Source: Candidatus Electrothrix rattekaaiensis | GTDB lineage: Bacteria; Desulfobacterota; Desulfobulbia; Desulfobulbales; Desulfobulbaceae | NCBI GenBank assembly: GCA_032595675.1 | Contig: JAVQMD010000001.1 | Span: 310,001 to 374,000, forward strand | DNA: 64,000 nucleotides | Direction of reading: 5' to 3' | Shown here: piece after piece, positions 10,485 to 52,895 of the stretch | Layout: every line of letters starts with the position of its first letter | Numbering within the stretch: the stretch's first letter is position 1 | Notes under the pieces: model-generated | Seen by the model: only the letters and a program-made list of their open reading frames with translations | The model's database searches: none | What the model was told of the DNA's origin: nothing | Position numbers and translations under genes: made by a program

Positions 10485-10660
10485 ACGGGAACGTTTTGTT
10501 TAACAGCAAGAATCTATTACCGTCAAGAGGATGGTAATTTTGAACTATTAATACTGTTAAGTGGACCGCACAATAAGATCAACCGCATCTTATTGCAGAT
10601 TCCGTTGGGTGTCAAAAAAATAGATTTAAGGAAATTTGATCACAAAGGATATTGGATTTA

Positions 10661-12019
10661 ATGACTAAAAAAAAATACAGAGTCCTATCTCTTTTTTCAG
10701 GTGGAATGGGACTTGATTTAGGGCTTGAACAAACTGGGCGTTTTAAAACAATTATATGTATTGAAAAGGAGAAGGCGTTTTGTGATACAATTCGACTTAA
10801 TCATAGCAAAGGAAGACTTCCAAAGAATTTAAAGATAGTAGAGGCTGACATATCAAAACTTGATCCAAAGCAAGTTTTCTCCGACTTAAAAGTAGATCCA
10901 AAATCTATTGATGTTGTTGTTGGTGGTCCTCCCTGTCAATCCTTTAGTACCGCTGGGCGTCGTGGCACGATACAAGATCCAAGAGGTACCCTATTGTGGG
11001 ACTTTCTCCGTTTCATACAGTACATCAAACCTAAAATGTTTTTGATGGAGAATGTTAGAGGGTTGCTATCAGCAGCTTTGAAGCATAGGCCAATTGCAGA
11101 ACGCCCTGAACGAGGAGGCGAACCACTTACTGACGAAGAAGTGCCTGGATCCGTAGTTAAATTATTTGCTCAAGATTTAGCAAACCTTGATGATATCGGT
11201 TACAACTTAGATGTTTTCGAAGTAAACTCAGTGAATTACGGGGCGCCGCAAATTAGAGAACGAGTTCTCTTTGTCGGAAATTGTTACGGAAAGAAAGTTG
11301 AATTTCCTCAGCCGACACACGGAAATAACACGAGCAAGAAGAATGTATCTAAGCAATTAACCTTGTTTGAAGAAAAAAACATTCGTCTTCCATGGAAAAC
11401 ATTAGGCGATGCAATAGGTGATTTTGATGAGAATGATCCCACTGTATTGGATTTTAGCCCAAGAAAAAAAAGTTTTTTGGCTATGGTGCCACCCGGTTCA
11501 AATTGGAGAAGCCTTCCAGAAGAAGTTCAAAAAGAGTCAATGGGTAAAGCATGGTATGCCAAAGGCGGACGTTCTGGCTGGTGGCGCAGACTCACCTTTG
11601 ATTTGCCTTCACCTACTCTCGTAACAATGCCGAATCATGCCAGTACTTCTCTCTGCCATCCTACTAAAACACGAGCGTTATCAATAAAAGAATATGCAAG
11701 GATTCAGGAGTTTCCAGATGATTGGGAATTTTCAGGTACGGTTTCTCAACAATATGCACAAGTGGGAAACGCTGTACCAGCAAGATTAGGAAATGTTGCA
11801 GGAAATGTTATCGCAACAGAACTAGATTCAATAATCAGTAATGGTATTAAAAAGCATAAACAGGCTACTTCTGATCCACGAATTGTATATATTCAATCTC
11901 ATGTAAGAGCCAGACAATGGTTCAAAGATGGGAAGGTACATATATGGTCTGATGGAGCCAATAATGATAACGCGTGTTATGCGTTACCAAAAACCACCAA
12001 AAAGGTTAACTCAATATAG
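10661..12019 (+). CDS. C5-cytosine DNA methyltransferase, first restriction-modification pair
   Basis: 452 residues from ATG 10661. Motif I is LFSGGMGLDLGLEQTG, motif IV is GGPPCQSFS with catalytic Cys92, motif VI is MENVRG, motif VIII is QIRERV, and motifs IX-X are near the C-terminus (KEYARIQEFP, QVGNAVPARLGN). The enzyme should methylate carbon 5 of cytosine in a specific site read by the region between motifs VIII and IX (about residues 215-320). ATG 10661 is preferred over the in-frame TTG 10652 because AGGAT lies 10 nt upstream of the ATG. The endonuclease gene follows after 2 nt. The gene is AT-richer than the flanking core genes, in keeping with horizontal gain. Confidence 0.95.
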   Translation: MTKKKYRVLSLFSGGMGLDLGLEQTGRFKTIICIEKEKAFCDTIRLNHSKGRLPKNLKIVEADISKLDPKQVFSDLKVDPKSIDVVVGGPPCQSFSTAGRRGTIQDPRGTLLWDFLRFIQYIKPKMFLMENVRGLLSAALKHRPIAERPERGGEPLTDEEVPGSVVKLFAQDLANLDDIGYNLDVFEVNSVNYGAPQIRERVLFVGNCYGKKVEFPQPTHGNNTSKKNVSKQLTLFEEKNIRLPWKTLGDAIGDFDENDPTVLDFSPRKKSFLAMVPPGSNWRSLPEEVQKESMGKAWYAKGGRSGWWRRLTFDLPSPTLVTMPNHASTSLCHPTKTRALSIKEYARIQEFPDDWEFSGTVSQQYAQVGNAVPARLGNVAGNVIATELDSIISNGIKKHKQATSDPRIVYIQSHVRARQWFKDGKVHIWSDGANNDNACYALPKTTKKVNSI

Positions 12020-12021
12020 AT

Positions 12022-12993
12022 ATGGCAAAAAGACGCGCTGAATTACCAAGACCAGAAGCAAGAGTGATTTCTAAAACCTCTTTACTTCAGCAACTGCAGG
12101 CTGTTGACTCAAACCAAAAATGTAGGGAACGAGTTTTACGTCTCGAGAACGCGTTTCGTAGTAAAATAGACTCTCACATAACATCATTGCCTTCAGGTGA
12201 TGCAATGTTTCGAAAGTTTAATACCAGTCCTTATGTACTCTTGATCCACGCAAGGCAAAAACAATATACAAAAATTAGCGACATTGAATCCGATATACTG
12301 CCAGCAAAACAATTTTCTTCAATGGAAACGTCTGCTGGACGTATGGTGGAGGAGGTGGTTCTTCCTGAATATGGATGGTCTGTTGTCCCCAGTGAAATGC
12401 ATACAGCAAACTCGGCATTGGATGGAAAAAAGCAAGACCCTGATATTTTTAGACTGGTTACGTTAAAAAGCGGGCCAAGATGCCTTAATGATGAAATGAG
12501 CGAGAATTTTGCCGATGCAATTATCGGCAATTATCAAGAATGGGTAAGCGAATCTGGGTTAAATCATATTGATTTTACGTACGGTGTCCTTTATGGCACC
12601 CAGAAAGTTTCAAACAAGAAAGATTGGCATATTCTCAGAAATATAAAAGAAAAATCGTTTACTTCGATGACAGTTTTACCAGATAACCAGTGGAACTGCC
12701 AGTTTGTAGATAATGGAATTACCGTTGATGTTACAGTACGAATTGGCCTTGATTGGTGGCACCACCTTGGTGGTGATCTTTGTTTTGTCGAAGTGTTCAC
12801 GGCCCTTATTCGAGCCTGTATCAACGCAGGATTACAGGATGATACAAATTACAATTATACCATATCCGACTTGGGTAATATCGTAGAAACAAGCTGCATT
12901 GATGAGAATTTCAATGTATCCCTTTTGCAGCGAAGCCAATTACCATGGTTATTTCTTATGGCTCTGCATTTTTGTGATTCGCTATCAAACTAA
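12022..12993 (+). CDS. Probable type II restriction endonuclease paired with the upstream methyltransferase
   Basis: 323 residues, starting 2 nt after the methyltransferase stop. I cannot assign a named family with certainty. The part METSAGRMVEEVV supplies a likely acidic helix, and DPDIF followed by TLKSGPRCLND fits the variable PD-(D/E)XK signature seen in many type II endonucleases, in which the KSGP-x-x-N stretch follows the catalytic lysine. These residues lie around 105-165. Position, spacing and the lack of any other partner make it the cognate nuclease of the methyltransferase. The target sequence cannot be read from the protein. Only 36 nt separate its stop from repeat copy A. Confidence 0.72.
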   Translation: MAKRRAELPRPEARVISKTSLLQQLQAVDSNQKCRERVLRLENAFRSKIDSHITSLPSGDAMFRKFNTSPYVLLIHARQKQYTKISDIESDILPAKQFSSMETSAGRMVEEVVLPEYGWSVVPSEMHTANSALDGKKQDPDIFRLVTLKSGPRCLNDEMSENFADAIIGNYQEWVSESGLNHIDFTYGVLYGTQKVSNKKDWHILRNIKEKSFTSMTVLPDNQWNCQFVDNGITVDVTVRIGLDWWHHLGGDLCFVEVFTALIRACINAGLQDDTNYNYTISDLGNIVETSCIDENFNVSLLQRSQLPWLFLMALHFCDSLSN

Positions 12994-13028
12994 AATCACC
13001 CAAAAAAAATCAGCGGACGCAAAAAGCC

Positions 13029-13140
13029 GGAGATTAGAGGCCAGACCACGATAACATCCCTGTTCAATGAACAAAACGGCAAACATAGCCGAACAAAAAA
13101 CTACAGCCGATTGCAAAGAAAGATTACCAAGAAAACCGAG
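13029..13140. repeat. Island repeat, copy A
   Basis: Starting with GGAGATTAGAGGCCAGACCA, about 86 bases match copy B (15338 on) with only a few changes, and a second short match (GAAAGATTAC) continues after an indel. Inside are small inverted repeats TGTTC-AAT-GAACA and CGGC-N-GCCG. Copy A lies just downstream of the first endonuclease gene and upstream of the second methyltransferase. Farther right, CGGCTTTTT (13174-13182) pairs with AAAAAGCCG (13021-13029), so the element may be bounded by an inverted repeat. Confidence 0.85.
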
Positions 13141-13252
13141 CTTGAGTATCGTTTAATTTGAAGGCTGTCGTTTCGGCTTTTTTGGCAGCTTACTGCGACG
13201 TTATGCACAAAAAGCAACCTCACATTAGATATTAAATATAGGTAAATAGAAA

Positions 13253-14434
13253 TTGAAACAAAAGCTTTTAGTTGATCTATTTGCAGGTGCGGGTGGTTTA
13301 TCCTGTGGATTAGAAATGGCAGGCTTTAAGCCAATATTGGCAAATGAAATTGATCCAAAATATGCAGAGACATACAAATATAATCATCCTGATACAGAGG
13401 TTGTGGTTGATGATATACGAGCTGTAAATGATATAAACTTAAAGGAAAATATTGGCTTGAAAGCTGGCGAGTTAGATTTGATTGCAGGTGGACCACCATG
13501 CCAAGGTTTTTCTATCAATGCTCCAATTAGAAGTCTGGACGATAAACGAAATCATTTATTTAAGGAGTATTTGAGAATTGCAGAAGCTCTCAGCCCCAAA
13601 GCAATCTTAATAGAAAATGTACCTGGAATTATTTCTTTAGGAAAAGGTACTGTTGTAGAGCAAATATACAAAGAACTTCATAGGATGGGTTACAGTATAA
13701 GTCATAGGATATTGTTCGCAGGTCATTATGGTGTACCTCAAATGAGGTTCCGAACGACATTTATTGCAATTAAAGGAAGAGAGAAAAAAATTATTTTCCC
13801 TGAACCGACTTATGACGCTAAAGCAGTTGCAAACTTTACCGGTGCTAAAGAGCTTTGTATGGATATTATGCCGTTGTTTGCACAGTATTTAAAACCCCAG
13901 ACTAATGTATGGGATGCGATATCAGATTTACCAGAAATTGAACCGGGTAATGGTGATGGTTTATTCAATTATCCAACAAATTCAAAAAGTAATTATCAAA
14001 CAATACTTCGAACAGGTTCTGACCATATTGAAAACCACATTTGTTCAAATCTTGGTAAAATTAATTTAGAACGACTTAAACATATTCCACAAGGTGGAAG
14101 TTGGCGAGACATTCCATTTGATTTGTTACCGACAGGACTCAAACGTGCCCGTCGAAGCGACCATACCAAACGTTACGGGAGGCTACATCCAGATGGTTTA
14201 TGCTCTACTATTTTAACCAAATGCGACCCGCATTGGGGGAGTTTCTTTCACCCAGTACAAGATAGAGTTCTATCTGTTAGGGAAGCAGCGAGAATTCAAT
14301 CTTTCCCAGACACATATATTTTTTACGGCAGTACTACCCAACAATATGCACAAGTTGGTAATGCGGTGCCTCCTTTTTTGGCAAAAGCAATTGGAGAGAC
14401 CATTTTACAAATGATCGGGAGTGGCCATGAGTAA
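13253..14434 (+). CDS. C5-cytosine DNA methyltransferase, second restriction-modification pair
   Basis: 393 residues. Motif I FAGAGGLSCGLEMAGF, motif IV GGPPCQGFS with catalytic Cys83, motif VI IENVPG, motif VIII QMRFRT, and C-terminal motifs REAARIQSFPD and QVGNAVPPFLA are all present. The predicted action is C5 methylation of cytosine within a recognition site shared with the downstream NotI-like nuclease. The start is TTG 13253 with AGGT 9 nt upstream; no ATG occurs before motif I, so a non-ATG start is required. It overlaps the next gene by 8 nt, showing translational coupling. It is only distantly like the first methyltransferase, so the two systems are not a recent duplication. Confidence 0.94.
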   Translation: MKQKLLVDLFAGAGGLSCGLEMAGFKPILANEIDPKYAETYKYNHPDTEVVVDDIRAVNDINLKENIGLKAGELDLIAGGPPCQGFSINAPIRSLDDKRNHLFKEYLRIAEALSPKAILIENVPGIISLGKGTVVEQIYKELHRMGYSISHRILFAGHYGVPQMRFRTTFIAIKGREKKIIFPEPTYDAKAVANFTGAKELCMDIMPLFAQYLKPQTNVWDAISDLPEIEPGNGDGLFNYPTNSKSNYQTILRTGSDHIENHICSNLGKINLERLKHIPQGGSWRDIPFDLLPTGLKRARRSDHTKRYGRLHPDGLCSTILTKCDPHWGSFFHPVQDRVLSVREAARIQSFPDTYIFYGSTTQQYAQVGNAVPPFLAKAIGETILQMIGSGHE

Positions 14435-15335
14435 AAAGAGAGATTTAATTGAGGTTTTTGGATATAGTCCTGATGACTTAACAAATAGTGTAAGGGTTCT
14501 TTGGAGTATGGGAGGGTGTCCGTTTACCAATAAAGGGTGTATCAAAATCAATCATGATCAAACCATCACCTATGGAACATGCAGTGTCACTTCACCGTAT
14601 GGTGATATTATTATTTGTCCAAACAGGCTATACGTTAATAACTATGAAGTATTAGCCAAAGTAAGCCATGACTCTTTTGGTAATAAAATACCGTTTCTAA
14701 TGTATGACCAATTCATTGAAGAAAGAGCTTTATATAAAGAATGTATAGTCGCACTCGGAAAAAATTCCGGAAAAGAGATACAAGTCGGTCGAGCATTGTC
14801 AATGGATTGGGTTTTGGCACATATTTCAGAAGCAAAATTAGTTGAGTACGTTGGAATAGAAGTTCAAAGTATCGACATTACAGGAAACTACCGTGACGCT
14901 TGGCATTCTTATAAAAACTTCACAAAAAATTCCGATAGAAATGCACTTCCATCCTCTCAACATGGTTTAAATTGGGCGAATGTCCATAAACGATTAATTC
15001 CTCAAATAATACGAAAGAGTGTTGTTTATTCACGATCAAAGCTTGTAACCAAAGGTCTTAATTTTATACTTCCAGATATTGTCTATAAAAAATTTGAAGA
15101 AGTGGTAGGAGACGATATTCCTTTATTAGACACTCAAAGTCATGACACTATAACTGTATACACATACGAACTTGGTAAGCCCGCTCCGTATGGTCATCAA
15201 AGGGAGTTGATTCAGGTTAGAAAGTTGAGATTTAATTTGGATGAGTTTTCAAATCGTTTCTTATCTGGACCAAATCTACCCAGTGGCGAGGATTTAGATC
15301 AAGTTGTTAAAAATGTTCTTGGGGTTGGAGATTAG
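14427..15335 (+). CDS. NotI-family restriction endonuclease
   Basis: 302 residues from ATG 14427 (GGGAG lies 5 nt upstream; a GTG at 14421 is also in frame). The N-terminus has the Cys4 pattern GGCPFTNKGCIK ... YGTCSV, matching the iron-binding Cys4 fold known from NotI. The core carries MDWVLAH and GIEVQSIDITGNY, where an Asp and the Glu-x-Gln pair correspond to the variant PD-(D/E)XK site of NotI. These family facts are established for NotI; application here is by motif. It should cut unmethylated DNA at the site protected by the overlapping methyltransferase. The actual target of this homologue is not deducible. Stop is 3 nt before repeat copy B. Confidence 0.82.
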   Translation: MSKKRDLIEVFGYSPDDLTNSVRVLWSMGGCPFTNKGCIKINHDQTITYGTCSVTSPYGDIIICPNRLYVNNYEVLAKVSHDSFGNKIPFLMYDQFIEERALYKECIVALGKNSGKEIQVGRALSMDWVLAHISEAKLVEYVGIEVQSIDITGNYRDAWHSYKNFTKNSDRNALPSSQHGLNWANVHKRLIPQIIRKSVVYSRSKLVTKGLNFILPDIVYKKFEEVVGDDIPLLDTQSHDTITVYTYELGKPAPYGHQRELIQVRKLRFNLDEFSNRFLSGPNLPSGEDLDQVVKNVLGVGD

Positions 15336-15534: not shown

Positions 15535-16719
15535 ATGAAAATTACACGGTTGGATATTGAAGGCTTCCGCTCCCTACGCAATGTACGTTGGGTTCCTGGA
15601 GATCTTAATGTAATTATCGGACCCAATGGGACTGGTAAATCAAATTTGTTACGATTAATGGAACTAATTTCTGTATCTGCACAGGGAAAGCTTGGTAAGT
15701 ATATTCAATCGTTGGGTGGAATGGACCCTATCGTTTGGGATGGCACTGCAACTTCCATAAAGTTTGCCCTTGAATCAATTCCTGAGGGAGGAGAGCTAGG
15801 ACCTGAACATTACGAACTTGAATTAGCAAGGCTTGGAGCTGGAAGTTCGTATAAAGTTGAAAAGGAACTTTTAATCAACTCGCATAAATTAAAGAAAAGT
15901 ATTGAAAAAAAACCATTTAAATTTCTAGAAAGGTTCTCGAAGACAGCAGTTATTTTTGATGAAACTGAGCGTACCTTTACTACTCCTGAAGAATTTGTCT
16001 CTGAGGAGGAAAGTCTTCTTTCAATAGCGTCAGGACCATTTATCAATAATCACTACATACCACCTTTTCAACGAGAATTGGCCTCTATTGCTGTTTATCA
16101 TGATCTGCATACGAATAACGATGCCTCTGTTCGTCAACCTGCTATCTCTCGTATGGAAAAACGGGTTGATCCTGACGGACAAAATCTCATTTCTGTTATG
16201 CATACGCTTTACACAGGTGATCGTAATTTCAAAAAAGATATTAATTCGGCCATGCGAGCTGCATTTGGTGATGATTTCGAAGAGCTAATTTTTCCGCCTG
16301 CGTCTGATCAGAGAATTCAAATGCGAATTCGTTGGAAATCGTTGAAGCGCGAGCAATCAGCTGCTGAACTTTCAGACGGAACCCTGCGTTTTTTGTTTTT
16401 GTTAACGGTACTGGCAAGTCCATCACCGGCTCCAGTTATTGCGATTGATGAACCGGAAACAGGGTTGCATCCATCCATGTTGCCCTTGGTTGCAGAGTAT
16501 GCGGTTGATGCATCGACTCGATCCCAAGTTATTTTCACGACGCATTCCCCACAATTTTTGGATGCTTTCGTGGAGACTCAGCCTACAACAACTGTAGCAA
16601 CATGGGAAAATGGTGAAACCATATTGAAAACGCTCAAAGGCGAAAATCTTAATTACTGGCTAAAAGAATACTCTCTGGGGGATCTTTTTAAATCTGGGGA
16701 ACTGGAGCAGATGATATGA
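15535..16719 (+). CDS. AAA (ABC/OLD-like) ATPase, probable defence-system subunit
   Basis: 394 residues. Walker A GPNGTGKSN at about 31-39 inside MKITRLDIEGFRSL..., ABC-type signature-like LSDGTLRF near 281-288, Walker B VIAIDEPETGLHP and the H-loop FTTHSPQFLD place it in the AAA_15/AAA_21 (RecF/OLD-like) group. Such ATPases often act with a TOPRIM or DUF4276 partner in phage defence (for example OLD and PARIS systems; established for those families). Here the partner gene overlaps its stop codon but is truncated. AAGGAAG lies upstream of ATG 15535. The location right after two restriction systems supports a defence role by context. Confidence 0.85.
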   Translation: MKITRLDIEGFRSLRNVRWVPGDLNVIIGPNGTGKSNLLRLMELISVSAQGKLGKYIQSLGGMDPIVWDGTATSIKFALESIPEGGELGPEHYELELARLGAGSSYKVEKELLINSHKLKKSIEKKPFKFLERFSKTAVIFDETERTFTTPEEFVSEEESLLSIASGPFINNHYIPPFQRELASIAVYHDLHTNNDASVRQPAISRMEKRVDPDGQNLISVMHTLYTGDRNFKKDINSAMRAAFGDDFEELIFPPASDQRIQMRIRWKSLKREQSAAELSDGTLRFLFLLTVLASPSPAPVIAIDEPETGLHPSMLPLVAEYAVDASTRSQVIFTTHSPQFLDAFVETQPTTTVATWENGETILKTLKGENLNYWLKEYSLGDLFKSGELEQMI

Positions 16720-17560: not shown

Positions 17561-19699
17561 ATGAGAATAACAATTGCATATAATCTTCGCACCGATGATA
17601 CAGAAGCCACGGCTGAACTTCTGACTGAAGCGGATATTAATCGAATACACAAGGCCATCAGCAGCCTGCAACATACCGTCACCGTGGTTGAGGTTTCAGG
17701 AAAACCCAATGCGGTGATTGAGCGCCTTCTTGAAAGTGAACCCGACCTTATCTTTAATTTAGCTGAAGGAACCATCGGCAGTTCAAGGGAGGCTTTTTAT
17801 CCCGGCTTGTATGAGCAAATGGGTATTCCGTTTACCGGAGGAAATGCCTCTCTTCTTCATCTCAATCTCGATAAACATCTCGCAAAAACCGTCCTGTCTT
17901 CTCATGGAATCAGTGTTCCGAGAGGCGTTTTACTGACTGGAAAAGAACTTGATCTGCCGGAAGATTTACAATATCCCCTGATGATTAAACCGAATTCAGA
18001 GGGATCAAGCAAAGGAATCACCCAGGATTCTGTTGTGGAAACAAGAGATCAGGCCCTGGAAAGAATACATCGTCTTATAGGTCATTATCCTGCCGGTCTT
18101 GTTGTTGAAGAATATATCGGAGGCCGTGAACTGAGCGTTCCTTTCCTGGAAAGTTTTCCGGGGAAATTACTGGATATTGTTGAACACACCTTTGATCTCG
18201 GTAAAATCGGAGGGAAATACAATATTTACGATTATGACATGAAGCAGGGCGGAGAAGCCGCACAAGCGGTCAAAGTTATTTGTCCGGCAATGATAACTTC
18301 AGAAGAAGAAAAAACTATCACGAAAATGGCCCGTGAGGTTTTTGATATCATGTCCTGCCCTGATGTCGGCAGGGTGGATATTCGCTTACATACAAACGGG
18401 AAACCCTATTTCATTGAACTTAATCCCCTGCCGAGTCTTCATCCTGATGCCTCCCTGATGACTGCGGCCAGATCACGCGGTCTTGAATTCCGCGATGCCT
18501 TACGTTTAATTATTCGTTCAGCTGCCCGCCGTTACGGACTTGCCATAAAATCTGTCAAGCAGACCCGAAAAAGTGACGTCACCTCTGAAATTCCTCGCCC
18601 GAATGCGCGGGATATCGGCATTCAAATCGGACGGATGTCGCCCGGAATTCATAATGCCATTACCGATGTGAAAGGTGTTCGTGTCGGTCATTTTTCACGA
18701 AGAGAAGATAATGTGCAAATTCCCGGCAGCACAGCAACAGGCAATGTACGCACCGGTGTGACAGCAATTATGCCTGCTGGTCAGGCGTATGCAAATCGGA
18801 TAGCGGCTGGCGGTTTTATTTTAAACGGTGTCGGAGAAATGGCCGGGTTAACCCAGGTTATGGAGACCGGCTGGCTGGAAACGCCGATACTGTTAACAAA
18901 CTCCCATTCCGTTGGACGGGTTCATGATGGTGTGGTTAACCATATGCTGAAAAAGTACCCGCAACTCGGTATCAAAACCGATGTGGTTTTACCGGTCGTG
19001 GGTGAAGCGGACGATTCTTTTTTAAATGATGTCAGAGTGGGAACATGTTCAGCCCAGGACGCCATCAAGGCTATTGAATCAGCATCATCCGGCTCGGTAC
19101 AACAGGGATCAATCGGGGCCGGAACCGGTATGACCAGCTTTGATTTTGCGGGAGGAATTGGAACATCTTCTCGTATTGTTTCTGTTCATGAAGGTGATGC
19201 CTTTACGGTGGGAGTGCTTGTTCTTTCCAATTTCGGTAAAATGCGTAATCTCACAATCGACGGCGGTGTCATCGGGAGAACACTGGACAAGGAGTTTGAT
19301 CAGGCCGGTCGCCGGGAAGTGTCAGAAGGATCAATCATTGTTGTGGTGGCGACAGATATCCCTCTTATAACGAGTCAGCTGAATCGGGTGGCAAAACGAG
19401 CCGCTCTCGGCCTCGGGCGTACCGGTTCCTATGCGGCATCAACCAGCGGCGAAATAATTATTGCCTTTAGTACGGGAAATCGTAAACCCCGAGTGCATAC
19501 CGCCCGCAGTAATTTTATGCAGTTGCGCTGTATCTCCGATCATGCGATCAATACACTGTACGAAGCAGTTATTGAGGCAACTGAAGAGGCGGTTATCAAT
19601 GCCATATTCTGTTCTCATGGAATGAACGGGCGCGAACAGCGCTGGTGTCCGCCGATTCCACATCAACGTGTTGTCGAACTCTTAAACAAAGGGAAGTGA
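17561..19699 (+). CDS. ATP-grasp (D-Ala-D-Ala ligase-like) protein fused to a P1/DmpA-type peptidase
   Basis: 712 residues, two enzymes in one chain. Residues 1 to about 335 are an ATP-grasp ligase of the D-Ala-D-Ala ligase class: NLAEGTIGSSREAFYPGLYE, IKPNSEGSSKGI, VEEYIGGRELSVP and FIELNPLPSLHPD. Residues about 355-712 are a P1-family (DmpA/BapA, S58) aminopeptidase: NAITDVKGVRVGH, GVGEMAGLTQV, TNSHSVGRVHDG and GTGMTSFDFAGGIGTSSR. Family members self-cleave before the nucleophile; here the likely bond is Gly534-Thr535. Ligase plus N-terminal peptidase suggests making or editing of a D-, beta- or otherwise unusual peptide. GGAGG stands 8 nt before ATG 17561. The amidohydrolase gene follows 4 nt after the stop. 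Each domain call is strong; the joint role is inference. Confidence 0.88.
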   Translation: MRITIAYNLRTDDTEATAELLTEADINRIHKAISSLQHTVTVVEVSGKPNAVIERLLESEPDLIFNLAEGTIGSSREAFYPGLYEQMGIPFTGGNASLLHLNLDKHLAKTVLSSHGISVPRGVLLTGKELDLPEDLQYPLMIKPNSEGSSKGITQDSVVETRDQALERIHRLIGHYPAGLVVEEYIGGRELSVPFLESFPGKLLDIVEHTFDLGKIGGKYNIYDYDMKQGGEAAQAVKVICPAMITSEEEKTITKMAREVFDIMSCPDVGRVDIRLHTNGKPYFIELNPLPSLHPDASLMTAARSRGLEFRDALRLIIRSAARRYGLAIKSVKQTRKSDVTSEIPRPNARDIGIQIGRMSPGIHNAITDVKGVRVGHFSRREDNVQIPGSTATGNVRTGVTAIMPAGQAYANRIAAGGFILNGVGEMAGLTQVMETGWLETPILLTNSHSVGRVHDGVVNHMLKKYPQLGIKTDVVLPVVGEADDSFLNDVRVGTCSAQDAIKAIESASSGSVQQGSIGAGTGMTSFDFAGGIGTSSRIVSVHEGDAFTVGVLVLSNFGKMRNLTIDGGVIGRTLDKEFDQAGRREVSEGSIIVVVATDIPLITSQLNRVAKRAALGLGRTGSYAASTSGEIIIAFSTGNRKPRVHTARSNFMQLRCISDHAINTLYEAVIEATEEAVINAIFCSHGMNGREQRWCPPIPHQRVVELLNKGK

Positions 19700-19703
19700 A
19701 GCA

Positions 19704-20714
19704 ATGAAAGTCATTGAGAAATATAACGACAGTCTGCACAATCCATACTGGAAGTATCAGCTCGGACCGGAAACGTATGAAGTAAAGGATACGCCTTTTC
19801 GTGTTGAATCCATAAAAAAAGCCCTTCGTTCAGATGAACGATTTGAGTTCCAGGTTGCCAAACAATTCCCGGAGCGTTTCATTTCCAGGCTGCATCCGTA
19901 TCACGATTATATCCGTAAAACCGGATTAAGCTTACACAATGATGACGAGGAATTTTATCCCGATCTTTTTCCCGGTGAAGGGGCAAATCTGACCAAAAAG
20001 ATTGATTCACCGCTCTGGGGCGGGATATGGTGTACTGATGCGGTCACGCCGATTATGCGTAAGACCTATGAGGTTGCTCGCGCTTCCGCTGAAACCGCCT
20101 TAACCGGAGCGGAATTACTGCGTGAAGGGCAGGAGAAAACCGTGTACGCCTTGTGCCGACCTTCAGGACATCATGCAGGCCCTCGTGTTTTTGGCGGGTA
20201 TTGTTATTTTAATAATGCAGCCACAGCAGCCGAGTATTTATTGCCCGAGGGAAGAGTAGCTGTTGTCGATATTGATTATCATCACGGCAATGGCACGCAG
20301 GAATTTTTCAATGAAATAAAATCGGTCTTTACCGCATCGATTCATTGCGACCCTTCCAACGAGTACCCGTATTTTTGGGGATATGCCGATGAACAAGGAA
20401 CAGGTCAGGCCGTGGGGACAAATCATAATGAACCGTTGCCCAAGGATACCAGTTTAGAGCAATACAGCGCGGCAGTTGACAGGATTATAGAAAAAATACG
20501 TGCCTTCAACCCTGCGTATTTAATTATTGCTGCTGGCTTTGATACGCATATCGATGATCCTATCGGGGGTTTTCAACTTCTCACGGAAGATTATATCGCC
20601 ATTGGTCAGCAGTTCAAGTCCTTGGAAATACCGACCTTGGTTTGTCAGGAAGGTGGATATAATGTTGAGAATCTCGGGAATTGTGTAAAGAATTTTCTTG
20701 CGGGGTTGATGTAA
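19704..20714 (+). CDS. Histone-deacetylase-superfamily amidohydrolase (acetylpolyamine amidohydrolase-like)
   Basis: 336 residues. The class signature residues are visible: RPSGHHAG with His156/His157, the zinc site DIDYHHGNGTQ (Asp191, His193), AAGFDTHIDDP with the third ligand Asp, and the C-terminal QEGGYNVENLG. Bacterial members of this class deacetylate acetylpolyamines or related acylated amines (established for AphA-type enzymes). The N-terminal region (MKVIEKYNDSLHNP, long insertion WGGIWCTDAVTP) resembles the polyamine branch more than AcuC. It is 4 nt downstream of the ligase-peptidase fusion, so one mRNA encodes a ligase, a peptidase and a deacylase. Substrate is not known. Confidence 0.87.
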   Translation: MKVIEKYNDSLHNPYWKYQLGPETYEVKDTPFRVESIKKALRSDERFEFQVAKQFPERFISRLHPYHDYIRKTGLSLHNDDEEFYPDLFPGEGANLTKKIDSPLWGGIWCTDAVTPIMRKTYEVARASAETALTGAELLREGQEKTVYALCRPSGHHAGPRVFGGYCYFNNAATAAEYLLPEGRVAVVDIDYHHGNGTQEFFNEIKSVFTASIHCDPSNEYPYFWGYADEQGTGQAVGTNHNEPLPKDTSLEQYSAAVDRIIEKIRAFNPAYLIIAAGFDTHIDDPIGGFQLLTEDYIAIGQQFKSLEIPTLVCQEGGYNVENLGNCVKNFLAGLM

Positions 20715-35509: not shown

Positions 35510-35595
35510 AAGGGGCAACCCGGCGGTCTCCTCCCGAGAGATCCGTGGCTTTCCGACACCGCCTCGCGACGGCTGTGGCTTTGTCAGCTTTCCAT
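35510..35595 (-). ncRNA. GEMM-like riboswitch candidate (c-di-GMP class I) in the leader of the PhnD-like gene
   Basis: Read on the minus strand, GACAAAGCC is followed by a stem CCGUC/GGCGG closed by a GCGA (GNRA) tetraloop (35559-35572), then GGAAAGCCACGG (35543-35554), a second stem with UCUC/GAGA pairing, and the closing GCCGGGUUGCC (35513-35523). Two stems, a GNRA loop and the terminal GCCGGGUUGCC match the c-di-GMP-I fold. The first strand differs from the usual ACAGGGCAAACC, so it may be a divergent member. A promoter starts just upstream (35651-35680). The gene served is the PhnD-like one, about 220 nt downstream; the expression switch in between is not visible. Confidence 0.55.
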
Positions 35596-50450: not shown

Positions 50451-52895
50451 ATGAATGAAGAAGTATTGCAGAAGATAGAAGAGGCCAAGGCCAGCGGGGC
50501 GACGAAGCTTAACCTGAGAGGAAAAGGACTCACCACCCTGCCGCCTGAGATTGGTCAGCTCACGAATCTGACGAAGCTTAACCTCAGCTACAACCAACTC
50601 ACCAGCCTGCCGCCGGAAATCTGCCAGCTCACGAATCTGACGCTGCTTCACCTCGGCGACAACCAGTTCACCAATCTGCCGCCCGAGCTATTCAATCTCA
50701 TAAATCTGACGAAGCTTTACCTCGGCGATAACCAACTCACCACCCTGCCGCCGGAAATCGGCCAGCTTACCAAGCTGAAAGGGCTTGGCCTCAACGACAA
50801 CCAGTTCAGCACCCTGCCGCCGGAAATCTGCCAGCTCACGAATCTGACGGGGCTTGACCTCGACGGCAACCAGCTCACCAGCCTGCCGCCTGAGCTGTGC
50901 CAGCTCACAAGCCTGACGGGGCTTGACCTCAGCTGCAACCAGCTCACCGGCCTGCCGCCGGAAATCGGACAGCTTACTAACCTGACACACCTTCACCTCG
51001 GCGGCAACCAGTTCAGCAGCCTACCTCCAGAAATCTACAAGCTCACTAACCTGAATTGGCTTAACCTCAGCTACAACCAACTCACCGCTCTGCCGCTAGA
51101 AATATACCAACTAACTAACCTGACAGAGCTTTACCTTATCGGTGACCAGCTCACCAGCCTGCCACCGGAAATCTGCCAGCTCAAGAATCTGACGGATCTT
51201 TTCCTCTGGCACAATCCGCTCCTCTGCCCGCCAATAGAGATTGCCGTCAAGGGGATAAAGGTGATGGAGGAGTATTTCTCTGAACTGGAGAAAGGTCAGC
51301 AGGCACTGAACGAGGTGAAGATTCTCCTTATCGGCGACGGGGCCGCAGGCAAGACCTCCCTGGTCAAGCAGCTGCGTGGCCAGCCTTTTGACGAGCACGA
51401 GGACACCACCCACGGCATCAGCATCCAGGGCTGGGAACCGGAATGCGCGGGCAAGCAGATCAGGGCCAATGTCTGGGACTTTGGCGGCCAGGAGATACAA
51501 CACGCCACCCATCAGTTCTTCCTGTCCAAGCGGAGCCTCTATGTCCTGGTGCTCGACAGCCGCAAGGACGAGAGCGCGGAATACTGGCTGCGGCATGTGG
51601 AGACCTTTGGCGGGGACTCGCCGGTGCTGGTCGTGCTCAACAAGATAGACAGCAACCCCTCCTTTGATGTCAACCGACCGTTCCTGCGGGAGAAGTATCC
51701 CGGCATCTGCGGGTTCTTTCCTCTCTCCTGCAAGAGCGACAAGGGAGTCCCAGAGTTCAAAGAAGCCCTGCTGGCCGAGCTGGCCAGGATGAACATGCTC
51801 AGTATCATCTGGCCGACAAGCTGGTTTGCGGTCAAGCGCAAGCTGGAGCAGATGGACAAGCCCTACATCAGCGTGAAGGAATACACGGGCTATTGCGCTG
51901 CGGCAGGCATCACTGGCGAGGAGAGCCGGGAGATCCTGGCTGACTTCCTCCATGACCTGGGCGTAGCCGTACATTTCCGGGACTTCATTCTTGATGCTAT
52001 GAGCGTGCTCAACCCGGTCTGGGTCACCAATGCGGTCTATAAGATCATCACTTCCGAGGAGATGGCAGACAGCAAGGGTCTCCTGGCCCTGAAGGACGTA
52101 GGCAAACTCCTGCCGCAGAGTTGCGGGGAAAAACTCTGCTGCCCGCAGGAGACGCACGCATTCATCCTGGAGCTGATGCAGAAGTTCGAGTTGTGCTATG
52201 ATCTCGGCAGGGATGCTGTGCTCATCCCCCAGCTTCTGCCGGTGCCGGAACCGGAGCTTGCCTTTAACAAGGACGGCTCGCTGCGGTTCGCCCTCCATTA
52301 TCCCGACTTCCTGCCGCCCTCGGTCTTTCCCCGCTTCATGGTCAAGGTGCATAAGGATATTCACAATGAGACCCGCTGGCGCACCGGTGTACTGCTGGCA
52401 GACAAGCGGAGCGGGGCACAGGCAGTGGTCAAGGCGGATGTGGAGGCGCGGCGGATCAACATCTGGGTCCAGGGCCATACCCCAAGGGAGTATCTGCACT
52501 ATCTCCGCTACTTGCTGACCGACATCAACAGCAGCTTTGAGAAGCTCATTGTCAGCGAGCGCGTGCCCATGCCGGATGACCCGCAGCGTACTGCCGACTA
52601 CGAGACCCTGCTGAACTATGCCAAGGAGGACATCCCGTATTATATTCCAGAGGGAACGAGCAAGAAATACAGCGTGCATGAGCTGTTGGGCCTCGTGCAG
52701 CCCAAGGATAAGGAAGAGCTGGCACGAGTGGCGGAGAAAGCCAGCCCGCAGGATACGACAACATGGGCGGAGATGCTCGTCGAGCTTGTTGAACCGGAAT
52801 GGACGATCCCTATGGTCGGCATCAAGCTCAACCTGAAGGGCTTCTTTGAAAAGCTGCTGGAACGCCAGAAGCAGAAGCGCAAGCAGGGTAGATGA
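50451..52895 (+). CDS. ROCO protein: leucine-rich repeats, Roc GTPase and COR domain
   Basis: 814 residues. Residues about 18-270 hold eleven 23-residue leucine-rich repeats (consensus LTNLTxLxLxxNQLTxLPPE). The Roc GTPase follows: GDGAAGKT (295-302), WDFGGQE (G3), VVLNKIDSN (G4) and FPLSCKSDKG (G5). The COR dimerisation domain spans about 470-690. The last 120 residues are charged and helical. Bacterial ROCO proteins are dimeric GTP-regulated scaffolds; the effector and stimulus are unknown. Strong nucleotide repetition between repeats (69-bp period) makes it prone to copy-number change. The start ATG 50451 has a GGCGAC-like poor ribosome site. Confidence 0.93.
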   Translation: MNEEVLQKIEEAKASGATKLNLRGKGLTTLPPEIGQLTNLTKLNLSYNQLTSLPPEICQLTNLTLLHLGDNQFTNLPPELFNLINLTKLYLGDNQLTTLPPEIGQLTKLKGLGLNDNQFSTLPPEICQLTNLTGLDLDGNQLTSLPPELCQLTSLTGLDLSCNQLTGLPPEIGQLTNLTHLHLGGNQFSSLPPEIYKLTNLNWLNLSYNQLTALPLEIYQLTNLTELYLIGDQLTSLPPEICQLKNLTDLFLWHNPLLCPPIEIAVKGIKVMEEYFSELEKGQQALNEVKILLIGDGAAGKTSLVKQLRGQPFDEHEDTTHGISIQGWEPECAGKQIRANVWDFGGQEIQHATHQFFLSKRSLYVLVLDSRKDESAEYWLRHVETFGGDSPVLVVLNKIDSNPSFDVNRPFLREKYPGICGFFPLSCKSDKGVPEFKEALLAELARMNMLSIIWPTSWFAVKRKLEQMDKPYISVKEYTGYCAAAGITGEESREILADFLHDLGVAVHFRDFILDAMSVLNPVWVTNAVYKIITSEEMADSKGLLALKDVGKLLPQSCGEKLCCPQETHAFILELMQKFELCYDLGRDAVLIPQLLPVPEPELAFNKDGSLRFALHYPDFLPPSVFPRFMVKVHKDIHNETRWRTGVLLADKRSGAQAVVKADVEARRINIWVQGHTPREYLHYLRYLLTDINSSFEKLIVSERVPMPDDPQRTADYETLLNYAKEDIPYYIPEGTSKKYSVHELLGLVQPKDKEELARVAEKASPQDTTTWAEMLVELVEPEWTIPMVGIKLNLKGFFEKLLERQKQKRKQGR

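Follow-up and report, generated by a model that had tools for sequence, protein, structure and literature searches.

The window, a stretch of 64,000 nucleotides from Candidatus Electrothrix rattekaaiensis, carries two plus-strand open reading frames, both with ATG starts and separated by 4 nt (Table 1). The first encodes a 712-residue protein in which a D-Ala-D-Ala-ligase-like ATP-grasp domain is fused to an S58 (DmpA/BapA-type) peptidase, and the second encodes an HDAC-type amidohydrolase. An earlier note on this DNA had described both the fusion and the closely following gene, and Pfam scans bore this out. Dala_Dala_lig_C (PF07478) matched fusion residues 133-318 (E 8.5e-28) and Peptidase_S58 (PF03576) residues 365-694 (E 6.4e-105; 351.5 bits versus a curated cut-off of 23.9); the only other matches to the protein at E 0.001 were ATP-grasp_3 and ATP-grasp_4. 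Rfam had no match near the unit, its sole match within the window being a c-di-GMP-I riboswitch at 35511-35589, and nothing but a tRNA was found in nine related loci. Around the unit there were 13 promoter-like sites versus 7.6 in shuffled sequence, and 11 terminator-like sites versus 4.4.

Table 1. Features of the two-gene unit, in window coordinates
Feature	Position	Strand	Basis
Fusion ORF, 712 aa	17561..19699	+	ORF listing of window
ATP-grasp (D-Ala-D-Ala ligase-like) half, residues ~1-328	17561..18544	+	PF07478; model-to-Ddl structural match
Ligase/peptidase linker, residues ~329-346, approximate bounds	18545..18598	+	Overlaps pLDDT <50 stretch 330-371
S58 (P1/DmpA/BapA-type) peptidase half, residues ~347-712	18599..19696	+	PF03576; alignments to 2drh, 1b65, 3n2w, 3n5i, 5tzb
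Gly590-Ser591 codons, predicted self-cleavage site; beta-part from 19331	19328..19333	+	DmpA/BapA alignment; 32/32 invariant
HDAC-type amidohydrolase, 336 aa	19704..20714	+	PF00850 E 5e-64; behind fusion in 33/34 checkable loci

Predicted active sites of the three domains

The best solved chains by sequence for the ligase half were D-Ala-D-Ala ligases, and the predicted model of the fusion matched Ddl over this half with Z 31.4 and rmsd 2.4 (295 residues aligned, 23% identity). The AlphaFold model had a mean pLDDT of 66 overall, with residues 330-371 under 50, and the peptidase half was modelled poorly; structural statements are therefore limited to the ligase half. The DdlB residues K97, K144, E180, E187, K215, R255, D257, E270 and N272 align with fusion K105, K143, E183, E190, K228, R271, D273, E286 and N288, respectively. 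None of the nine, which include those for ATP, Mg and catalysis, varies among the 32 aligned fusions, so that the residue check proposed in the earlier note came out in favor of an intact ligase. Ddl and the ligase half thus have in common their fold and the residues for ATP, Mg and catalysis (Lys/Arg), whereas the DdlB omega-loop Tyr216 is replaced by Gln229 at the same alignment position. The ligase half also fell under the cut-off of 25 NCBIfam models (25 of the 35 matches), the best being PRK01372 with 145.8 bits versus 243. One further, weaker ATP-grasp match, perhaps the true Ddl, is present in the window's genome.

For the peptidase half, the best solved chains by sequence were 2drh and 1b65 (DmpA), and chains named D-aminopeptidase were among the solved S58 relatives. 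The nucleophile position of BapA (S in 3n2w, A in 3n5i) and Ser250 of DmpA, which we take to be its nucleophile, both align with Ser591. The predicted cleaved bond is therefore Gly590-Ser591, and the fusion probably cuts itself there, as judged from sequence alignment. The earlier note had placed self-cleavage at Gly534-Thr535, 56 residues too early; position 535 is Thr in 31 of the aligned fusions and Ser in one, while Gly590 and Ser591 are invariant in all 32. Equally invariant are N557, E482 and S629, which together with G590/S591 align with DmpA N218, E144, S288 and G249/S250, presumably the oxyanion residue, a substrate residue, the second Ser, and the self-cleavage site and nucleophile, respectively. 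A cut at this bond would leave the whole ligase with the peptidase alpha-part (residues 1-590) and release a beta-part of the last 122 residues. The fusion thus shares with the DmpA/BapA/P1 peptidases (MEROPS S58) a full-length domain, the nucleophile Ser and three more DmpA residues; it differs in that the S58 domain sits behind an ATP-grasp and in having Asp484 where DmpA has Tyr146.

The nearest solved proteins by sequence to the 336-residue protein were acetylpolyamine amidohydrolases (6phr, 9gkz). Predicted zinc ligands D191, H193 and D280 and predicted catalytic residues H156, H157 and Y319, roles which we take from the HDAC family, do not vary across the 32 sequences. These sites are common to the acetylpolyamine amidohydrolases and HDAC-type enzymes; the difference here is that the gene lies directly behind the fusion. 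HDAC enzymes take off N-epsilon-acetyl groups. Among the scanned relatives of this protein (13 genomes searched), those of L191, L212 and L213 (39-42% identity over about 300 residues) carry a GNAT domain in the same chain, and the HDAC-GNAT gene of L191 adjoins a KamA-like gene and two ATP-grasps.

Distribution of the unit

Genome contigs were scanned for the fusion with two short N-terminal patterns. Fusions at 56-95% identity were found in records titled from 12 phyla, and five of the records (L072, L073, L077, L078 and L095) carry neither a MAG nor a candidate-taxon title; carrier genomes of Marinilabilia, Tangfeifania and Psychromonas are likewise not titled as MAGs. Because the fusion recurs in so many assemblies, these five records included, an assembly artefact, which the earlier note had allowed for, was rejected. 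Of the 34 loci that could be checked, 33 have the HDAC gene behind the fusion, the co-occurrence that the earlier note had proposed to look for. An adjacent HDAC gene is missing from the deepest-branching clade of fusions (G391, L091); the L091 contig runs on for no more than about 1 kb, and the G391 genome encodes a 41% HDAC relative at another place. The fusion and HDAC genes appear to move together. The fusion tree lacks L098, and L004 was left out, the same genome being represented by L052. The fusion reading frame is split at residue 438 in Ca. Electrothrix aarhusensis (L055/L089) and near residue 550 in L088.

A phage or plasmid origin was rejected after scans of viral contigs and plasmid records. 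The viral contigs gave four pattern matches, none confirmed as a relative, and of 730 plasmid records matching part of the protein, none spans 80% of it in one place. No DNA match to the unit was found in E. coli genomes.

The spread also bears on the idea that the unit is a small cluster for a secondary metabolite, with the ligase assembling a dipeptide and the S58 half serving as a tailoring hydrolase, the role of ThnT in thienamycin biosynthesis. Clusters of this kind often contain ATP-grasp ligases, and ThnT chains did match the S58 half weakly (E ~6e-5 and ~3e-6). However, matches to 2drh, DmpA and BapA were far stronger (E 1e-59 or better), and only the fusion and HDAC genes recur together across loci, the remaining neighbours mostly differing. 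We consider this explanation highly improbable.

Association with ablA and ablB

AblA (lysine 2,3-aminomutase) and AblB (beta-lysine acetyltransferase) are the enzymes of the pathway to the osmolyte N-epsilon-acetyl-beta-lysine (NeABL). In 5 of 37 fusion loci, ablB lay within the fetched stretch, and three of the five also hold ablA. The gene orders are ablB-fusion-HDAC (L068), fusion-HDAC-ablB (L073), ablA-ablB-fusion (L091), ablA-x-ablB-fusion followed by the contig end (L098) and ablA-x-ablB-fusion-HDAC (L100). NCBIfam cut-offs were passed by AblA in L091 and L102 and by AblB in L091, L068 and L098, as well as by the AblB copies of L073 (genome G467) and L100 (genome G492). Random placement would give about 0.14 such loci (P 4e-7, a rough value from rounded genome sizes). 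The four ablB-adjacent loci in the tree (L068, L073, L091, L100) fall on separate branches. In the window's genome, ablA and ablB share a contig with the unit, some 1.36 Mb away from it; AblA and AblB are encoded in six of eight genomes of the genus Electrothrix.

AblB also co-occurs with the unit at the genome level, being over cut-off in 39 of 41 carriers: 34 of the 35 genomes behind fusion loci, a set that counts a fusion remnant in G493 and, in G494, a match of 43 residues at a contig end, and five of six carriers in the window's family. Of the two AblB-negative carriers, G489 does pass the cut-off for AblA (positions 3-379 of 417), and the Electronema KV MAG (G057) has the unit and a match to neither protein. 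Non-carriers in four comparison sets, each built around known carrier genomes, had AblB in 2/67, 12/393, 27/66 and 12/165 cases, the last 12 including the remnant-bearing G493. In the class with 12/165, all nine carriers were AblB-positive (Fisher 9e-10, uncorrected for kinship); such values overstate the association, because carriers are related to each other, and the family of G471, for instance, contributes five carriers that are all Marinilabilia. Many AblB genomes do without the fusion (27/32, 12/14 and 12/21, with G493 again among the last 12, and 2/7 in the window's family), and the unit is therefore not needed to make NeABL.

Some of this co-occurrence could stem from a common saline, anoxic habitat. 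Taken further, the link might be mostly ecological, with the unit making and cutting an unrelated amide, such as a D-amino acid peptide, a glutathionylspermidine-like polyamine conjugate or a carnosine-like beta-alanyl peptide, in saline anoxic sediments where both gene sets are common. The 32 of 37 loci with no ablB in the fetched stretch, the acetylpolyamine amidohydrolases nearest to the HDAC-type protein and the D-aminopeptidase names among the S58 relatives would fit such a history. It sits poorly with the direct adjacency of ablB on separate branches, with the contrast between carriers and non-carriers in the one class, and with the neighbours of the ATP-grasp relatives: in 27 loci with such relatives, recovered with queries all from one locus (L062), some of them near relatives and with no random-locus control, a KamA/AblA-like aminomutase was present in 12 and a RimI-like acetyltransferase in 14, with neither in seven. 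We therefore judge a mostly ecological link to be quite unlikely, and a functional tie of the unit to beta-lysine/NeABL to be very probable. The earlier note had proposed an unusual amide that was D-, beta- or polyamine-linked; the ablA/ablB link favors the beta option, and for the other two we found nothing beyond family names.

A possible beta-lysyl amide cycle

As a specific role, we propose, at roughly even odds, that the unit is a mobile add-on to acetyl-beta-lysine metabolism, able both to make a beta-lysyl amide and to take it apart. AblA and AblB, encoded elsewhere in the genome, would supply NeABL; the ATP-grasp half would use ATP to activate the carboxylate of (acetyl-)beta-lysine and join it to an amine partner, yielding a beta-lysyl dipeptide or amide. 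In the reverse direction of flow, the HDAC-type enzyme would strip the acetyl from the epsilon position. The S58 half, self-cleaved at Gly590-Ser591, would split off the N-terminal beta-amino acid, so that beta-lysine and the partner are both recovered. BapA-type S58 enzymes do cleave N-terminal beta-amino acids. The HDAC-GNAT chains, together with the aminomutases and acetyltransferases near ATP-grasp relatives, point to beta-lysine separately from the ablB adjacency and co-occurrence. We hold this full mechanism of making and unmaking at a little short of an even chance.

By analogy, the unit would treat its solute derivative much as glutathionylspermidine synthetase/amidase (GspSA), which both makes and breaks its amide, treats its own product. 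In GspSA and trypanothione synthetase, as here, an ATP-grasp domain makes an amide and a second, hydrolase domain in the same chain breaks one, although those enzymes have another branch of ATP-grasp, a CHAP amidase, the opposite domain order and a polyamine substrate. Our sequence comparison was the Pfam scan, which at E 0.001 found neither a CHAP amidase nor a GspS-type ATP-grasp in the 712-residue protein.

Alternatively, the ligase could couple the amino acid, once released, to a partner that has nothing to do with osmolytes. The removal of N-epsilon-acetyl groups by the HDAC family, the accessory nature of the unit (absent from 27 of 32 AblB genomes of one family) and the apparent joint movement of its two genes are compatible with this; on the other hand, if the unit served degradation alone, it would be difficult to account for a same-chain ligase whose ATP and Mg residues are invariant. 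Further, a review (PMC1224877) reports little if any NeABL turnover in methanogens, and so lends no support to a breakdown branch, either here or in the make-and-unmake cycle. This alternative seems to us unlikely, and we return to the make-and-unmake cycle. The unit adjoins genes of the NeABL pathway in some loci and shares genomes with them, whereas the pathway itself, in the accessible portions of PMC1224877, PMC12776343, PMC9337991 and PMC3543383, ends at the acetylated amino acid, with no ligase, peptidase or deacetylase step mentioned. Nor did the titles and abstracts searched in the open-access literature yield a description of the fusion or of any such step. This accords with the earlier note, whose author knew of no described system of this makeup; for an enzyme that combines a ligase with a peptidase that probably processes itself, that search found no precedent.

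If the make-and-unmake cycle is right, it would extend the osmolyte pathway, which in the portions of the literature seen stops at acetyl-beta-lysine, by a further branch. The product may be an undescribed (acetyl-)beta-lysyl dipeptide or amide osmolyte, made and reversibly dismantled by one self-cutting chain with the deacetylase as the switch, and the unit an add-on that has passed among sediment bacteria of some dozen phyla, the cable bacteria among them; we rate this somewhat below an even chance. It would give a concrete metabolite to seek in Marinilabilia, Tangfeifania and Psychromonas. Whatever its role, the ligase-peptidase fusion may serve beta-peptide chemistry. A 2023 paper reports cable bacteria to be without osmolyte biosynthesis, although most of the Electrothrix genomes examined here encode AblA and AblB. 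Cable bacteria of the genus Electrothrix can probably produce an organic osmolyte of their own, a point of relevance to their life in salt water.

The two genes and their active sites

The earlier note had described a D-Ala-D-Ala-ligase-like ATP-grasp joined to an S58 (DmpA/BapA) peptidase in one chain, with a histone-deacetylase-type (HDAC-type) gene 4 nt further on, and the frames and domain matches bear this out. The ATP-grasp domain occupies fusion residues 133-318, and the structure model of this half agrees, its closest solved structures being Ddl enzymes (Z 31.4, rmsd 2.4, 295 residues). The S58 domain covers residues 365-694; the predicted structure model of this half is poor, but the domain is strongly matched by sequence (E 6.4e-105).

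Coordinates of the unit and of other features, by window, genome (G) or locus (L)
Feature	Position	Strand	Remarks
Fusion frame	window 17561-19699	+	712 codons; ATP-grasp and S58 peptidase
HDAC-type amidohydrolase frame	window 19704-20714	+	336 codons
AblB and AblA genes of the window's genome	G000:C1:1692917-1695002 (L142:8900-11057)	-	outside the window
HDAC and GNAT in one chain	L191:8138-10399		
HDAC and GNAT in one chain	L212:703-2439		
HDAC and GNAT in one chain	L213:694-2484		GNAT marginal (21.3 bits, cut-off 20.7)
Second, diverged fusion	L210 (G491:C206:1794-3896)		53% identity; genome already has one
Short frame	L102:7914-8378		fusion residues 1-102 joined to last 22 HDAC residues; adjoins ablA; the unit has apparently lost its interior, unless the contig is misassembled
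Two C5 cytosine methyltransferases	window 10652-15335		just upstream of the unit; likely restriction-modification genes, since a frame behind one gives a weak EcoO109I-type match (20.9 bits, below cut-off) and a type II restriction enzyme is strongly matched behind the other (PDLC03465, 501 bits)
AAA ATPase frame	window 15535-16719		match to HEC-01A-type candidate defence proteins, 209.8 bits
c-di-GMP-I riboswitch match	window 35511-35589	-	49.1 bits
LRR-Roc-COR (Roco) protein	window 50451-52895		814 aa; bacterial host

In an alignment with E. coli DdlB, the ligase half retains its residues for ATP, Mg and catalysis, with Gln229 at the position of the omega-loop Tyr216. Alignment of the peptidase half to DmpA and BapA predicts Ser591 as the nucleophile; Gly590, Asn557, Glu482 and Ser629 match Gly249, Asn218, Glu144 and Ser288, functional residues of DmpA. 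The DmpA Tyr146 position aligns with Asp484, which, as a guess, might suit a basic side chain. In the HDAC-type protein, H156, H157, D191, H193, D280 and Y319 are presumably the zinc and catalytic residues expected of the family. Gln229 and Asp484 aside, the checked active-site residues of ligase, peptidase and HDAC were invariant in 32 of 32 rows; those two were conserved at 90% or more in 29 rows. Because Ser591 is aligned as the nucleophile and is invariant, the predicted cleavage is at Gly590-Ser591 and not at Gly534-Thr535, the self-cleavage site proposed earlier. Self-cleavage at the predicted site would keep the ligase on a 590-residue alpha-part.

Carriers of the unit and its mobility

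Among 73 genomes of the window's family, the Desulfobulbaceae, the full fusion was found in G000 (the window's genome), G057 (Electronema KV), G059, G063 and G064, and in two frames in G058; in a sample of 395 phylum genomes it was full length, among the matches listed, in G000 and G391. A scan of genome contigs returned 39 loci, of which L101 has ATP-grasps only, L102 is a remnant, and L087, L098 and L103 are truncated at contig ends. Grouped by record title, the tree rows span 12 phyla, with 8 rows in no group, a count subject to the caveat that MAG bins may be wrong. The five carrier records not titled as MAG or candidate taxon (Tangfeifania diversioriginum DSM 27063, Psychromonas sp. MB-3u-54, two Marinilabilia salmonicolor and Marinilabilia rubra) are from Bacteroidota and Pseudomonadota only.

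A same-strand HDAC gene lies behind the fusion in 33 of the 34 loci in which the fusion 3' end is present; the exception, L091, reaches its contig end about 1 kb further on, and G391 (L056) likewise has no HDAC gene there. The gap, measured at 31 loci, had a median of -4 and a maximum of 668 nt, and at 23 of them it did not exceed 20 nt. Fusion and HDAC distances run parallel (r 0.90, reached by 0 of 2000 permutations), and the outer neighbours of the unit mostly vary between loci. In the tree, the Electrothrix fusions cluster with those of four Prolixibacteraceae and one Melioribacteraceae MAG (99/95), and the Electronema KV fusion with those of Psychromonas and two Kiritimatiellae (99/94); these different clades suggest that cable bacteria acquired the unit twice, separately. 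Of five genomes in KV's genus, KV alone has the unit; a MAG of the same name is placed near the brackish Ca. Electronema halotolerans in a section of PMC10030654. Overall, the unit is real, conserved, mobile and built from known families, and we found no description of the fusion, or of the unit's layout, in open-access literature.

Association with ablA and ablB

Lysine 2,3-aminomutase (AblA) and beta-lysine acetyltransferase (AblB) make the osmolyte N-epsilon-acetyl-beta-lysine (NeABL). AblB was above cut-off in 34 of the 35 genomes behind fusion loci, a set that includes G493 (remnant) and G494 (a 43-residue contig-end match); the sole miss, G489, has AblA, matched over positions 3-379 of 417. 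In the family, 5 of 6 carriers had AblB, and Electronema KV had neither protein above cut-off in its genome. Among non-carriers, AblB was found in 2 of 67 in the family (Fisher 8e-6), 12 of 393 in the phylum sample, which has some genomes in common with the family set (0.001), 27 of 66 in the family of the Marinilabilia genome G471 (0.015), and 12 of 165 in the class of G483, G493 being one of the 12 (9e-10); these Fisher values ignore kinship, and the comparison sets are centred on known carriers. The unit is accessory, because many AblB genomes are without the fusion: in the family this holds for 2 of 7, and in three other sets for 27 of 32, 12 of 14 and 12 of 21.

Within the fetched stretch, ablB was present at 5 of 37 loci and absent from the other 32, versus about 0.14 expected (P 4e-7, a rough value from rounded genome sizes, with loci taken as independent). 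The orders were ablB-fusion-HDAC (L068), fusion-HDAC-ablB (L073, Psychromonas), ablA-ablB-fusion (L091), ablA-x-ablB-fusion up to the contig end (L098) and ablA-x-ablB-fusion-HDAC (L100), gene x of L100 being sodium/solute-symporter-like at 166.4 bits, just below the 184 cut-off.

In the window's genome AblB scored 331.7 bits and AblA 778.7 bits. Both were above cut-off in 6 of 8 Electrothrix-genus genomes, this one included, in contrast to a section of PMC10030654 in which osmolyte biosynthesis is reported absent in cable bacteria. Sections of PMC1224877, PMC12776343, PMC9337991 and PMC3543383 treat AblA/AblB or the product without further steps, and in the first NeABL turnover in methanogens is described as little if any.

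Relatives outside the unit and a proposed beta-lysine role

ATP-grasp relatives outside the fusion, drawn from the best phylum-sample matches and from L101, were paired in 25 of 27 loci. A KamA/AblA-like aminomutase was found in 12 of the 27, a RimI-like acetyltransferase in 14, and neither in 7, counts without a random-locus control in which some loci are closely related and both queries came from L062, itself one of the 27. HDAC relatives at 39-42% over some 300 residues were found in G409, G245, G391 and G080 (13 genomes searched). All three scanned (L212, L191 and, marginally, L213) have GNAT domains, which puts acetylase and deacetylase in one chain, and the L191 protein has a KamA-like gene and two ATP-grasps as neighbours. 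There thus seems to be a second system that combines an aminomutase and an acetyltransferase with a deacetylase and ligases, in support of a beta-amino-acid function for this group of ATP-grasps.

HDACs take off N-epsilon-acetyl groups, and BapA-type enzymes cleave N-terminal beta-amino acids; this known chemistry fits such a role. In sum, genomic context gives good support to a functional link between the unit and beta-lysine, and for its reaction we infer, as the best account, that a ligase/hydrolase pair and a deacetylase would act on beta-lysine or its acetyl form.
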